NCBI RefSeq assembly: GCF_963678865.1
Contig: NZ_OY787459.1
Span: 1 to 64,000, forward strand
Length of the DNA stretch: 64,000 bases
Reading direction: 5' to 3'
Source: Maridesulfovibrio sp.
Lineage (GTDB): Bacteria > Desulfobacterota > Desulfovibrionia > Desulfovibrionales > Desulfovibrionaceae
A model generated the notes under the pieces. The model did not search any database and had not been told where the DNA came from. It was given only the letters and a program-made list of their open reading frames with translations. Position numbers and translations under genes: made by a program. The stretch's first letter is position 1; each line of letters starts with the position of its first letter. This document shows positions 7,714 through 15,506 of this stretch, in pieces.

Positions 7714-8043
7714 ATGAGTGTCAAACGCAAGGGAAATAGTACGGTTACGATTTTTCCGGATTGGTGTAAGGGATGCGGAATTTGCGCAGCGTTCTGTCCG
7801 GCAAAGGTCATGGAATTGAACGATCAGGGTAAAGCGGTCGTCGTCAGGGAAGAAGAATGTATCAATTGTGGATTCTGTGAACTGCACTGTCCGGATTTCG
7901 CGATTATGGTTCGCCCCAAGATTGATGACGAGATTCCAGCTGTATGCAGGGCTGTCCTTGAGAAGGCCGCCCGTAAAACAGATGGAGCCGCCGATTCCGG
8001 CGATGCTGCTGATAAAGCCGTTTCCGGTAAACAAAAGGTATAA
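7714..8043 (+). CDS. korD: 2-oxoacid:ferredoxin oxidoreductase, delta (ferredoxin) subunit
   Basis: KorD is the two-cluster ferredoxin subunit that passes electrons from the thiamine-diphosphate site to soluble ferredoxin. Both [4Fe-4S] motifs are complete in the 109-residue protein: C18-C21-C24-C28 followed by P, and C49-C52-C55-C59 followed by P. The tail after residue 80 is alanine-rich and probably flexible. It is the first gene of korDABC; korA follows after 11 bases. The ribosome site is weak. The enzyme most likely oxidises 2-oxoglutarate to succinyl-CoA, though other 2-oxoacids cannot be excluded. Confidence 0.9.
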   Translation: MSVKRKGNSTVTIFPDWCKGCGICAAFCPAKVMELNDQGKAVVVREEECINCGFCELHCPDFAIMVRPKIDDEIPAVCRAVLEKAARKTDGAADSGDAADKAVSGKQKV

Positions 8044-8054
8044 GGTGAACTTCC

Positions 8055-9206
8055 ATGGCCAGACCTAGAAAAAAGAGAAATAAAGAGATTTTCGCTCTGG
8101 GCAATGAGGCTGTTGTTGAAGGTGCACTTCTGGCAGGCTGCACTTTTTACGGCGGGTATCCAATTACTCCTTCATCGGAGATTATGGAGATTATGGCTCA
8201 GAGATTGCCGTTGATTCCCAACGGTGCATTTATTCAGATGGAAGATGAAATTGGCGGGCTTGGTTCAGTTATCGGTGCTTCATTGGCGGGAAGAAAAGCT
8301 ATGACCGCAACATCCGGTCCCGGTTTTTCGCTTATGCAGGAGCATCTTGGCTACGGGTGCATCACCGAGACTCCGCTGGTAATCGTGAACGTCATGCGCG
8401 GCGGACCCAGTACCGGGCTCCCAACATCCCCGGCACAGGGAGATGTTCAGCAGGCTCGTTGGGGAACCCACGGTGACCATTCCATCATAGTGCTTTCAGC
8501 ATCCAACGTTCAGGAATGCCTTGATAATACTATTGAGGCTTTCAACCTTGCGGAAAAATACCGCACTCCGGTAATTCTGCTCATTGACGAGATTACCGCC
8601 CATACCCGTGAGAAGATCATCATCCCCAACGAGGATGAGTATGAAGTTTTCAACCGTATTGTCCCGACCATGCCTCCGGAATGGTACAAACCTTACGAAG
8701 AAACCGTGCGCGGTGTTCCGCCCATGCCTTCCATCGGTTCCGGGTACCGGTTTCATGTTACCGGACTGACCCATGATACCAACGGTTTCCCGACCTCGCG
8801 ACCTGATGAAGTCCGGGAACTAAACGATCGTCTTTTCCGTAAGATCGACCAGTTTCTTCACGATGTTCAGCTTGTGGACGAAGTGGATACAGCTGATGCG
8901 GAAGTTGTGGTCATCGCGTATGGTACAGTTGCCCGCTCGGCAGAGCTTGCTGTTAAGCAGGCTCGTGATCTGGGCGTCAAGGCCGGACTGCTTAAGCTTT
9001 CAACCCTGTTTCCGTATCCCAGGACGGCCACCGAGAGAATTATGGCAAAAGCCCATACTCTTGTAGTGCCGGAAATGAATATGGGACAGATGTCAAGGGA
9101 AGTGAAAAGGGTCAATAACGGTCAGGTAAGCGTGCGGACCATTAATAAGGTGGACGGGCAGATAATCACCCCCGCCGAAATCCTCAAAGTCTTAACACGG
9201 GTGTAG
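8055..9206 (+). CDS. korA: 2-oxoacid:ferredoxin oxidoreductase, alpha subunit
   Basis: KorA (383 residues) carries the pyrimidine-binding and transketolase C-terminal domains of a KorAB-type oxidoreductase. The family segment GGYPITPSSEIME is present near residue 35, followed by EDEIGGLGSVIGAS and TATSGPGFSLMQEHLG. The C-terminal domain has VPEMNMGQM. It acts with KorB to decarboxylate a 2-oxoacid and form an acyl-CoA in the cytoplasm. The next gene starts two bases after the stop, so translation is probably coupled. In sulfate reducers this enzyme usually feeds an incomplete citric acid cycle. Confidence 0.94.
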   Translation: MARPRKKRNKEIFALGNEAVVEGALLAGCTFYGGYPITPSSEIMEIMAQRLPLIPNGAFIQMEDEIGGLGSVIGASLAGRKAMTATSGPGFSLMQEHLGYGCITETPLVIVNVMRGGPSTGLPTSPAQGDVQQARWGTHGDHSIIVLSASNVQECLDNTIEAFNLAEKYRTPVILLIDEITAHTREKIIIPNEDEYEVFNRIVPTMPPEWYKPYEETVRGVPPMPSIGSGYRFHVTGLTHDTNGFPTSRPDEVRELNDRLFRKIDQFLHDVQLVDEVDTADAEVVVIAYGTVARSAELAVKQARDLGVKAGLLKLSTLFPYPRTATERIMAKAHTLVVPEMNMGQMSREVKRVNNGQVSVRTINKVDGQIITPAEILKVLTRV

Positions 9207-9208
9207 TC

Positions 9209-10045
9209 ATGGCTGATATGAAAGGTACACAACTCATTCATGAGTACTTAAGGCATAACAAGAAGTTTCCGCATGTTTTCTGCGCAGGTTGCGGGCACGG
9301 AATTGTGCTCGGCTCCCTGATCCGGTCTATCCACGGTCTCGGTCTTTCCAAGGACGAGGTCTGCGTTGTGGCCGGTATAGGCTGCTCCGGCAGGTTGGCG
9401 GCGTATGTTGATTTCAACACAGTCCATACCACTCACGGGCGTGCGCTGACTTTTGCTACCGGAATCAAAATGGCTAAGCCGAACATGCATGTTATTGTGG
9501 TCATGGGTGACGGTGACTCCATGGCTATCGGGGGCAACCACCTGATCCATGCTGCGCGCAGGAACATCGGGGTGACCGCATTGATCCTCAACAACAACAT
9601 TTACGGTATGACCGGCGGTCAGTGTTCACCTACCACACCGGCGGGCTCTTTCTCCATGACCACCCCGCTGGGGCAGATGGAGCAGAGCTTCGACTGCGTG
9701 GAACTCTGCACAGCCGCAAAGGCAAACTATGTGGCTCGCGGATCGGTTTTTCATGTCAATAAACTGGATAAGATGATCATGGACGGTATAAGCACTCCCG
9801 GTTTCGGTGTGGTAGAAATTCTTACTCCATGTCATACCCAGTATGGGCGCAAAAACAAGTTCAAGACTCCGGTGGATATGTACAAGATGCTCAAAAGGGA
9901 TGTTGTCGACATAGACCGCTATAATAATCTCAGTGAAGCTGAAAAAGCCAAGAAGATTCCTTCCGGGGTCTTTGTCCAGAAAGATAATCCCGGTCTGGAA
10001 GAAAAATTCTATGAAATGGCTGCGCACTGTCAGGGAGGTTTGTAA
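9209..10045 (+). CDS. korB: 2-oxoacid:ferredoxin oxidoreductase, beta subunit
   Basis: KorB is the thiamine-diphosphate-binding subunit, 278 residues. The cofactor motif begins at GDGDSMAIGG and runs to NNNIYGMTGGQ about thirty residues later. Upstream are the conserved FCAGCGHG and GIGCSGR segments; these cysteines are typical of beta subunits in this family. HTTHGRA matches the KorB group. The stop codon shares one base with the korC start, in the tight TAATG arrangement. Confidence 0.94.
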   Translation: MADMKGTQLIHEYLRHNKKFPHVFCAGCGHGIVLGSLIRSIHGLGLSKDEVCVVAGIGCSGRLAAYVDFNTVHTTHGRALTFATGIKMAKPNMHVIVVMGDGDSMAIGGNHLIHAARRNIGVTALILNNNIYGMTGGQCSPTTPAGSFSMTTPLGQMEQSFDCVELCTAAKANYVARGSVFHVNKLDKMIMDGISTPGFGVVEILTPCHTQYGRKNKFKTPVDMYKMLKRDVVDIDRYNNLSEAEKAKKIPSGVFVQKDNPGLEEKFYEMAAHCQGGL

Positions 10046-10668
10046 TGAAAAATCAATCTCTGGACAGATTTGAAATACGTCTTTCCGGACTTGGAGGGCA
10101 GGGTATCCTGACGCTTGGTAAGGTCATGGGATCAGGTCTGGCTCTCGGGCACGGCTATTTTGTGACCCAGACCCAGAGTTACGGCCCGGAAGCCCGAGGT
10201 GGGGCAAGCCGTTCAGATCTCGTAGTCAGTTCCGATGTAATCAGCTATCCAAAGGCTGAATCCCTTGACCTGCTCATTGCGCTCAGTCAGGAAGCTTGCA
10301 ACATGTATTATCGTAACCTGAAGCCCGGCGGTCTGTTGATGATCGAAACCGATCTGGTCAAACAGCCTCCGGTAAACCAGTTTATCGGCTTGCCTTTTAC
10401 TAAGCTTGCCAAAGATAAGCTGGGCTTGATTCAGGCTATGAACACTATTGTTCTTGGTGCAGCAACTTTTCTGCTGCCTTTTGCACAGCAGAGGACTATG
10501 CGTAAAAATCTTGAGGATGTTCTTCCCGCAAAGATTAGAGATATCAACGTCAAGGCCTTTAACATGGGTTATCGCGAGGCTAAGAAGAGCTTTGGTGATC
10601 CTGAAGATCTTTGGAAATTCAATTCAGTTATCGTCTCTGATGATGATTCTGATTACGATTCAATTTAA
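10045..10668 (+). CDS. korC: 2-oxoacid:ferredoxin oxidoreductase, gamma subunit
   Basis: KorC (207 residues) is the gamma domain that shapes the coenzyme A site. The signatures are LSGLGGQGILTLGKV at the N-terminus and QSYGPEARGGASRSDLV about 35 residues later, both classic for this domain. The last residues are rich in aspartate and serine, which is unusual but probably harmless. It is the last gene of the operon; a bidirectional terminator follows within 25 bases. Confidence 0.94.
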   Translation: MKNQSLDRFEIRLSGLGGQGILTLGKVMGSGLALGHGYFVTQTQSYGPEARGGASRSDLVVSSDVISYPKAESLDLLIALSQEACNMYYRNLKPGGLLMIETDLVKQPPVNQFIGLPFTKLAKDKLGLIQAMNTIVLGAATFLLPFAQQRTMRKNLEDVLPAKIRDINVKAFNMGYREAKKSFGDPEDLWKFNSVIVSDDDSDYDSI

Positions 10669-13074: not shown

Positions 13075-13662
13075 TTAAGATACGGCCTTAACTCCGAGTT
13101 CCAGAGCTTTCAGGTTTATATCCGCGATTTTCGGTTTCATGGCTGATTTGATTGTTTCAGCAAGTTGTTCCGGTTTAAGCGGGATACACCCGGTAGCGCA
13201 GAGAGCTCCAAGCATAGCGATGTTTCCGCTCTGCACGGCTCCGGCTTCAAGGCCTAAGCTCTGGCAGGGCAGGTAGTAAGCTTTTCCGGCGCAGGTATCA
13301 ACCTTTTCCTTGATTTCTTCAAGTGGAGTGTTGTCTGCTTTACCGGTGCATACGGAAAGTGGCGGAATGTATTCGGTGCTGGAAAGCACTGTTCCGCCGG
13401 GTTTGAGATAGGGCAGTGCCCGCAGTGTTTCCAGAGGCTCAAAGCCGAGGATGATGTCTGCTTCGCCATATCCGATTTTAGGGGAGGCCAGTCCTATGAG
13501 CAGTGCAGATTCTACAACACCGCCGCGCTGGGCCATTCCATGAATTTCTCCGGCAGTGACATTAACTCCGCAGTCAAGAACCGCCTGTGCGAGGAGGTTG
13601 GTGGCTGTCAGGGTTCCCTGTCCGCCGACCCCGGTCATGAATATACGCAACCTGGTGTCCAT
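13075..13662 (-). CDS. iorB: Indolepyruvate ferredoxin oxidoreductase, beta subunit
   Basis: IorB (195 residues) is the gamma-like subunit that works with IorA to convert aryl pyruvates, from transamination of aromatic amino acids, into aryl-acetyl-CoA with reduction of ferredoxin. The signature FMTGVGGQGTLTATNLLAQ is at the N-terminus and HGMAQRGGVVES follows. The start overlaps the iorA stop by one base, with AGGAG upstream, so translation is coupled. The enzyme can also run in the reductive direction to make aromatic amino acids. Confidence 0.94.
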   Translation of the reverse strand: MDTRLRIFMTGVGGQGTLTATNLLAQAVLDCGVNVTAGEIHGMAQRGGVVESALLIGLASPKIGYGEADIILGFEPLETLRALPYLKPGGTVLSSTEYIPPLSVCTGKADNTPLEEIKEKVDTCAGKAYYLPCQSLGLEAGAVQSGNIAMLGALCATGCIPLKPEQLAETIKSAMKPKIADINLKALELGVKAVS

Positions 13663-15506
13663 TAGCTGCTCCTTTTCCGGGCTTTAATATCTTTTGTCAG
13701 CTGCAGGCAGAGCATACAGCCGGAACAAAGTATTTCGTTGATTTCAACGCCATTCGCAGTTTTTTCAAATGCGGGGCAGGCCAGTTCTTCCATCACTTTG
13801 AGAACTTCTTCACTCTGGTTTTCCACGTATGCGGTGCGTCCGGGAGCTTTTTTAAGAGTTCTGCGGGCAAAGAGCGGGCAGGGATCCTTGGCAATCAGTA
13901 CGCGAACACCGCTAATTCCCTTGAGTTCTTCTAGGGCATTGGTGATAGCCTTTTGATTGAGCGGGCTCACAGTACGAACTTCATTTACACCGCAGCCACG
14001 GACAATGGCTTCCATGTCAATCTGAGCGGGGTTGGAGCCGAGCATAGTCGTCTCTACACCGGGATTGGGCTGGTGCCCGGTCATGGCAGTGGTGGAGTTA
14101 TCAAGAATCACCAGCAGGATGTTGTGCTGGTTGAAGACGGCGTTAACCAGTCCGGTGATGCCGGAATGGAAAAAAGTGGAGTCTCCGATAAAGCCGATCA
14201 CAGTCTGGCCTGCTGCTTTTGCTGCGCCGGAACCTGCAGATATGGAGGACCCCATGCAGAGCAGGAAGTCGGCGGCATTCAGCGGGGGCAGGATGCCCAG
14301 AGTGTAGCAGCCGATGTCAGAAGAACATATGGCATCAGGGCCGAAGACTTTTTTCACTGCGTAGTATGCTGCACGGTGGGTGCAGCCGGCACAGAGGTTC
14401 GGCGGACGTGTAGGCAATCCTTCTTCTGCAACACATCTTTCTGTCTTTTCTGCTTCCAGTCCCAGAACTTCGCGGATGATAGCGGTGATATTCAGAGTGG
14501 AATATTCATCATTGAGAGGCAGAAGTTTGTTTTCTTTGCCGAGAATCTCCACTGTGATGGAATTTTTCTGGGCCAGAACACGGAGTTCATTCTCAAGGAA
14601 AGGCTCAAGCTCTTCCAGAACAACTACTTTTTCAACAGAAGAGATAAAGTCGGTAATCATCTTGGCGGGCAGCGGGTAAGTGAAGCCCAGTTCAAGGATT
14701 TTAAATTTATCGGTAAGGCCGGTATCCACCAGTGCATCTGCGAGGTAAGCTCTACAGATACCGGAAGCAACGATACCGATTTTTCCGTTACCGGAAATTT
14801 TGTTATACTTGGAGGTTTCCGCCATTTCACGCAGCTTTTCGAGCTTTTCAAGCAGGTCCACGTGCATTCTGCGGGCAAAAGCCGGGATGGGTACGAACTG
14901 CGCGGGATTTTTTTTGAATCCTTCCGCCGGAGCAAGTTTGGTAATTTCACCATACTCGACCGGGCCGCGAAGGTGGTTGACTCGGGTTGTGGTGCGCAGC
15001 AGGACAGGAGCGGACATTTCGCGGGACATATTCAGCCCGTCGCGGGTCATATCTTTGGCTTCCTGAGCAGTGGAAGGCTCAAAGCAGGGCATGCCGGCGA
15101 GGCGGGCATAGTAACGGTTATCCTGCTCATTTTGGCTGGAGTGGCATCCGGGGTCGTCAGCGGAAAGCAGGACCATGCCGCCCGGGGTGCCGGTGTAGGC
15201 CAGAGTCATAAGCGGGTCGGCAGCAACGTTAACGCCGACATGCTTCATGGTGGTCATAGTCATTGCACCTGCGAGGGAGGCGCCGCCGCCAACTTCCAGG
15301 GCAACTTTTTCGTTGACCGAGTATTCAAATGTGAAATCGCCTTCAGGTGAAAGGCGGAAGAATGTGTCCGGTACTTCGGAGGAAGGGGTTCCGGGGTAGC
15401 AGGTAACAACCTGAATCCCGGCTTCAATCGCGCCTCTGACAATGGCTTCATTGCCGAGAAGCAGCTTTTTCATGCCCGGACTGTCCTTGAGAAGTGGGTG
15501 AGCCAT
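13662..15506 (-). CDS. iorA: Indolepyruvate ferredoxin oxidoreductase, alpha subunit, one-cluster form
   Basis: IorA (614 residues) carries the thiamine-diphosphate site and normally a C-terminal ferredoxin domain with two [4Fe-4S] clusters. The cofactor motif starts at GDSTFFHSG and the N-terminal GNEAIVRGAIEAG and CYPGTPSSEVPD are typical. The ferredoxin domain is shortened: only C577 (in CPAF) and C594, C597 and C600 (in CSGCMLC) remain. These are precisely the four ligands of one cluster, while all four ligands of the other are gone. The next gene starts at the stop codon, so this is not a frameshift. A good ribosome site (AAGGAG) precedes the ATG. Confidence 0.94.
   Translation of the reverse strand: MAHPLLKDSPGMKKLLLGNEAIVRGAIEAGIQVVTCYPGTPSSEVPDTFFRLSPEGDFTFEYSVNEKVALEVGGGASLAGAMTMTTMKHVGVNVAADPLMTLAYTGTPGGMVLLSADDPGCHSSQNEQDNRYYARLAGMPCFEPSTAQEAKDMTRDGLNMSREMSAPVLLRTTTRVNHLRGPVEYGEITKLAPAEGFKKNPAQFVPIPAFARRMHVDLLEKLEKLREMAETSKYNKISGNGKIGIVASGICRAYLADALVDTGLTDKFKILELGFTYPLPAKMITDFISSVEKVVVLEELEPFLENELRVLAQKNSITVEILGKENKLLPLNDEYSTLNITAIIREVLGLEAEKTERCVAEEGLPTRPPNLCAGCTHRAAYYAVKKVFGPDAICSSDIGCYTLGILPPLNAADFLLCMGSSISAGSGAAKAAGQTVIGFIGDSTFFHSGITGLVNAVFNQHNILLVILDNSTTAMTGHQPNPGVETTMLGSNPAQIDMEAIVRGCGVNEVRTVSPLNQKAITNALEELKGISGVRVLIAKDPCPLFARRTLKKAPGRTAYVENQSEEVLKVMEELACPAFEKTANGVEINEILCSGCMLCLQLTKDIKARKRSS

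Follow-up and report, generated by a model that had tools for sequence, protein, structure and literature searches.

Indolepyruvate ferredoxin oxidoreductase, whose alpha subunit is IorA, is an amino-acid-degrading enzyme of sulfate-reducing bacteria. The window analysed here, a stretch of 64,000 nucleotides from Maridesulfovibrio sp. (contig NZ_OY787459.1, positions 1 to 64,000), encodes an IorA ending in a ferredoxin-like domain in which only four cysteines are found. The locus raises the question of whether one of two cluster sites was given up selectively or the tail is simply decaying, and of the route by which electrons would then leave the enzyme.

The iorA locus and the cysteines of its tail

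The alpha subunit gene iorA (13662..15506, minus strand; 614 aa) matches TIGR03336 with 735.9 bits against a cut-off of 650.9, over positions 1-591 of the 595 of the model, and its product is predicted to be a member of this family acting on indolepyruvate or other arylpyruvates with ferredoxin. It is paired, as is expected of an iorA, with a POR-domain gene lying directly downstream, the beta subunit gene iorB (13075..13662, minus strand; PF01558, 121 bits), whose best NCBIfam match is TIGR03334 (165.9 bits, under the cut-off of 205.8); the stop codon of iorA and the start codon of iorB share one base (TAATG). In a search of its own genome, the window IorA was the only one above the TIGR03336 cut-off, which rules out a redundant IorA paralogue.

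The ferredoxin-like domain covers about residues 557-614 (13665..13838, minus strand) of an AF2 model with a mean pLDDT of 92.3, rising to 94-96 over residues 561-610. In ferredoxins with two such motifs, Cys1-3 of motif 1 together with Cys4 of motif 2 bind cluster I. After C543, the translation of the window IorA holds only C577 (13776..13778), at motif 1 Cys4, and C594, C597 and C600 (CSGCMLC, 13707..13727), at motif 2 Cys1-3, all of them ligand positions of cluster II. The cluster I positions, aligned with 90 relatives, are occupied by S565, V568 and V571 (13794..13814) at the former motif 1 Cys1-3 and by T604 (13695..13697) at the former motif 2 Cys4 (all on the minus strand). The first-pass annotation, over a range (13662-13776) that spans C577 to the stop codon, had read the remaining cysteines as the complete ligand set of cluster II and none of that of cluster I; the alignment with the 90 relatives agrees, and a comparison of C-termini across Desulfovibrionaceae and other bacteria places the cysteines at these same positions, motif 1 Cys4 and motif 2 Cys1-3. 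Its exclusion of a frameshift, drawn from the iorB start at the stop codon, stands as well: congeners of 91-93% identity carry the same tail, so that neither a frameshift nor an error of sequencing can account for it.

Two CxxCxxC...C motifs with eight cysteines, which define a 2[4Fe-4S] ferredoxin domain, were not found in the window IorA, and a Pfam search of its tail returned no Fer4 family at E values up to 1. The tail does show the pattern of a single [4Fe-4S] site, that is CxxCxxC (C594, C597, C600) with the remote pair C577-P578. From this ligand set we infer a [4Fe-4S] cluster bound at C577, C594, C597 and C600, which would be exactly one cluster in the tail domain. Since the support for a cluster comes from sequence and the AF2 model is computed without cofactors, zinc or another metal that carries no electrons could be imagined in the remaining site of one plus three cysteines; we consider this very improbable, as relatives with two tail clusters have exactly this CxxCxxC spacing and this partner CP motif.

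Upstream of the tail lie the putative ligands of the proximal cluster, namely C372 and C375 of the CxGC loop (14382..14393), C400 (14307..14309) and C543 (13878..13880), all on the minus strand; the first three are cysteine in 161/161 aligned rows and C543 in 160/161, with one gap. The assignment of C372 and C375 follows from their homology with the CxGC motif described in PMC5020499. Next to this loop, residue 376 (14379-14381) varies within the window genus, being Thr in the 9/9 sequences without motif 1 Cys3, the window included, and Pro in the 7/7 with it.

Distribution and history of the one-sided loss

The order to which the window species belongs was sampled with 91 full-length IorA sequences (own genome included), down to 524 bits among the matches listed. 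This set leaves out truncated sequences (G048, G045 and G009, the latter in two pieces), one sequence of 510 aa (G027) and one of 748 aa (G089), as well as twelve matches of 300-340 bits and 834-981 aa and all weaker ones. C577, C594 and C600 are present in 91/91 rows and C597 in 88/91, the three exceptions having Asp and forming a distant group (L098-L100). In this group motif 2 reads CxxD, with Asp at a cluster II ligand position, and motif 1 is without its second Cys.

Within the order clade of 84 IorAs (support 100), cluster II has its 4/4 cysteines in 84/84 rows, and cluster I is reduced in graded steps to at most two cysteines in 68/84. The ligand cells occupied by other residues number 208/336 for cluster I vs 0/336 for cluster II, so the one-sided pattern is more than chance. 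The cluster I patterns of the 91-row set are CCCC (18), CHCC (4), C.CC (5),.CCC (1), ..CC (11), ..C. (29) and .... (14), plus nine others. A usable cluster I site is absent from 15/15 sampled congeners of the window species, and the 16 rows sampled from the genus hold either no cluster I Cys (9/16) or motif 1 Cys3 alone (7/16). Across the family of the window species, site I is lost in all rows of 28/34 sampled genera; among the other families of the order it is kept in 7/7 rows of f5, 3/11 of f2 and 0/12 of f3, f4 and f6. To judge from these alignments, one-sided loss is the rule in the window's family and not a peculiarity of the window gene.

Outside the order, a phylum sample of 70 rows (30 + 40 loci) was partly picked for an early-ending model match, so that its counts are not those of a random sample. 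Five of the 70 belong to the window's own family, all with the loss; the other 65 comprise 33 CCCC, 22 CHCC, one CCDC, one fusion, one broken frame and seven short IorAs (L131-L137), which stop right after the last Cys of the proximal cluster or its place. In the two short ones examined, L136 and L137, iorB comes directly next. Among 80 named loci from bacteria and archaea, some of which possibly come from the same genomes as rows of the other samples, both sites are complete in 55, the pattern is CHCC in 13, and the loss is found in 4, all titled Desulfovibrio sp.; three more end after the proximal cluster (L197, L198, L219), two are cut by contig ends (L195, L209) and three are odd: L196 is a fusion and probably misaligned, in L176 the His is displaced by one residue, and in L241 a one-residue insertion hides an intact motif. 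Loss of cluster I with the domain kept therefore appears confined to the window's order in the samples read, leaving the fusion L139 aside. The long fused frames, L139 and L196, measure 1100 and 1151 aa.

The CHCC pattern corresponds to a CxxHxxC motif 1 that is kept across genera in a large Desulfobacterota group (L101-L113, L115-L117, L119, L120, L122 and others) and occurs in 22/70 phylum rows and 13/80 named loci; this group possibly has a His-ligated cluster I.

Graded ligand loss across the order might be taken for a decaying tail in which four cysteines are left by chance. This is contradicted by a cluster II that is intact in 84/84 rows and by strong purifying selection on the tail, and we give it practically no weight. 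Against 15 congeners, the window protein has a median dN/dS of 0.049 and 0.045 in the two body parts, of 0.057 in residues 571-611 and of 0.155 in the linker, and all-pairs pN/pS gives 0.136 and 0.112, 0.302 and 0.127 for body parts, linker and tail, respectively; synonymous sites are near saturation, which makes the ratios rough, yet the ranking of the regions is clear. From residue 543 on, the invariant columns of the 95-row alignment A1 are exactly C543, C577, C594, C597 and C600. The one-sided loss of cluster I looks like a maintained redesign of the electron path rather than decay, because most near relatives share it and because the tail is under purifying selection like that of the catalytic body. 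The earlier proposal of a selective loss is thus strongly supported, by the invariant cluster II ligands, the low dN/dS of the tail, the graded intermediates and the family-wide distribution.

The number of losses was counted on a tree built from the catalytic part alone, from which L138 (broken frame) and L139 (fusion) were excluded. If losses are irreversible, 11 events are required, or 8 and 4 when branches with support below 80 and below 95, respectively, are collapsed. Unordered parsimony needs 7 changes over 159 rows, domain-less rows being scored as lost, and 6 on a second tree of 73 rows, slower and better modelled. In place of CxxC, a Q-[GST]-x-x-[VA] motif is common to many lost rows, which argues for fewer losses than the irreversible 11; the site may have been lost just once, in an ancestor, and intact genes later regained or transferred in f5 and others.

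Docking of the tail and the path of electrons

In the AF2 model of the window IorA, a single helix (residues 566-575) runs through the former motif 1, whereas in L054, a relative with eight cysteines, residues 561-569 are not helical and a helix is found at 570-574 only, which suggests that the cluster I loop was refolded into a helix. The domain is present and confidently folded, so the window IorA is not of the StOFOR type, in which the ferredoxin domain is absent. Its core superposes on the pyruvate:ferredoxin oxidoreductase (PFOR) structure 1b0p with Z 32.9 and an rmsd of 3.0 over 520 aligned residues; the structural alignments with PFOR did not place the tail against domain V, and a sequence search of the PDB found no solved chain spanning the IorA tail.

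The reading that we favour, at a probability of roughly 0.68, is an IorA with two clusters in all, in which cluster II would pass electrons to ferredoxin. Each alpha-beta unit would hold two [4Fe-4S] clusters where three are usual: one, the proximal cluster, would be bound in the ThDP domain by C372, C375, C400 and C543, and the other, cluster II, by C577, C594, C597 and C600 of the C-terminal domain. The cysteines of cluster I would have been replaced step by step, for the most part with the motif 1 segment keeping its length, its former loop now probably a helix, and the domain and cluster II would still be under selection. ThDP would pass its electrons to the proximal cluster, from where they would reach cluster II and then a soluble ferredoxin, a relay that needs cluster II to lie within electron-transfer range of the proximal cluster.

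How this range might be reached depends on docking. In the StOFOR2-StFd model of PMC5020499, a distance of 14 A separates cluster I from the proximal cluster that it faces, and cluster II is called structural; a docked ferredoxin superposed on domain V of PFOR has cluster I as the medial and the other cluster as the distal one; and the interface residues named for StFd include Ile46 and Pro94 (PMC5020499). A shorter electron path, which the first-pass annotation expected from the loss, is not supported, since this geometry puts the lost site at the medial cluster and the path would be broken unless the docking were reversed. PFOR-like docking would leave the window enzyme without a medial cluster, and cluster II would then be either too far away or structural. 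Either the IorA tail docks the opposite way, or electrons would leave at the proximal cluster, as they have to in IorAs that lack the domain, and cluster II would be structural. Ile46 and Pro94 of StFd presumably adjoin the first and last cluster I ligands, which fits the ligand rule.

The first of these options, in which the ferredoxin module of IorA is wired opposite to that of PFOR, with cluster II facing the proximal cluster and cluster I as a former exit that was removed repeatedly, is put forward tentatively, at somewhat less than even odds. If it holds, the partner ferredoxin would take its electrons from the inner cluster in Desulfovibrionaceae and their order, and homologous 2-oxoacid oxidoreductases would use one ferredoxin module in two orientations.

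That cluster II is structural, i.e. that docking is PFOR-like, that loss of the medial cluster disconnected cluster II and that electrons exit at the proximal cluster, as in StOFOR and in the domain-less IorAs, seems to us unlikely. It agrees with the StOFOR2-StFd model, in which cluster I is the one facing the proximal cluster (14 A) and cluster II counts as structural (PMC5020499). It also agrees with a domain that is dispensable in the IorA family, as ten IorAs, seven from Desulfobacterota (L131-L137) and three named loci (L197, L198 and L219), end after the last Cys of the proximal cluster or its place, and with the coincidence of C571V and P376T in the window genus (T376 in 9/9, P in 7/7). 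A purely structural domain sitting in the docking pocket would, however, be expected to block the proximal cluster, and G596, M598 and Q602 of the motif 2 loop are conserved at 100% in 72 lost rows, stricter than folding alone suggests.

Two further lines of evidence on the orientation of the tail were set aside. P376, adjoining the proximal CxGC loop, is Pro in 16/16 rows that retain three or four cluster I Cys and in 23/68 lost rows, which hints at a cluster I site near the proximal cluster, but these suggestive counts come down to just 3 independent pairs once phylogeny is counted and are not significant; residue 544, whose co-change with the loss was considered together with that of residue 376, is also highly variable among intact rows from beyond the order. 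Conservation around the motifs was also rejected as a test of docking polarity. In IorA the surroundings of motif 2 are more conserved than those of motif 1 (motif 2/motif 1, in bits) among 8-Cys (2.15/2.89), CHCC (0.79/1.55) and lost rows (0.87/2.51); PFOR, whose medial cluster corresponds to cluster I, has motif 1 more conserved instead (0.83 vs 1.34; 17/19 rows usable). The PorD/KorD delta subunits, for which PFOR-like docking would be expected, nevertheless resemble IorA, with motif 2 more conserved (0.69 vs 1.64; 20/30 loci usable).

Comparison with known systems

The window IorA shares the enzyme, the cluster II ligands and the proximal ligands with IorAs that have two tail clusters (TIGR03336; Desulfonatronum sp. 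L171 and most archaeal and clostridial IorAs), but these retain all four cluster I Cys and the window IorA none. Monocluster [4Fe-4S] ferredoxins are free proteins that usually kept cluster I and lost cluster II of the two-cluster fold; both they and the window IorA have lost one cluster, whereas IorA keeps the opposite site, and does so within a large enzyme. With the PFOR of Desulfovibrio africanus (1b0p) it has the core fold in common, as well as a ThDP domain that holds the proximal cluster (domain VI of PFOR; PMC5020499); PFOR has its medial and distal clusters in domain V (PMC5020499), whereas in the window IorA the domain is C-terminal and the site matching the medial cluster is gone. 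StOFOR of Sulfolobus tokodaii resembles it in an electron exit with fewer built-in clusters, but is, according to PMC5020499, entirely without the ferredoxin domain, which the window IorA retains with one site.

What is new here is a one-sided loss of a built-in cluster in a known enzyme, widespread in one order and with intermediates; a search of the open-licence PMC literature, which probably misses older biochemistry of the enzyme, found no report of IorA cluster number or loss. IorA offers a natural series within one family, in which some members have three clusters, others partial ligand sets and others two, with the proximal cluster alone in another branch and the core kept throughout, and this series can show which built-in cluster is needed for electron transfer to ferredoxin. 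The question it poses is a sharp one, as the site that is always kept matches the distal cluster of PFOR and the site that is lost matches the medial one.

The window also carries a korDABC-like operon (7714-10668, plus strand), whose KorD has all eight Cys, unlike the IorA tail, and two PFOR genes above the TIGR02176 cut-off are found elsewhere in the genome (G000:C1:4225723-4229211 and 1792189-1795680).
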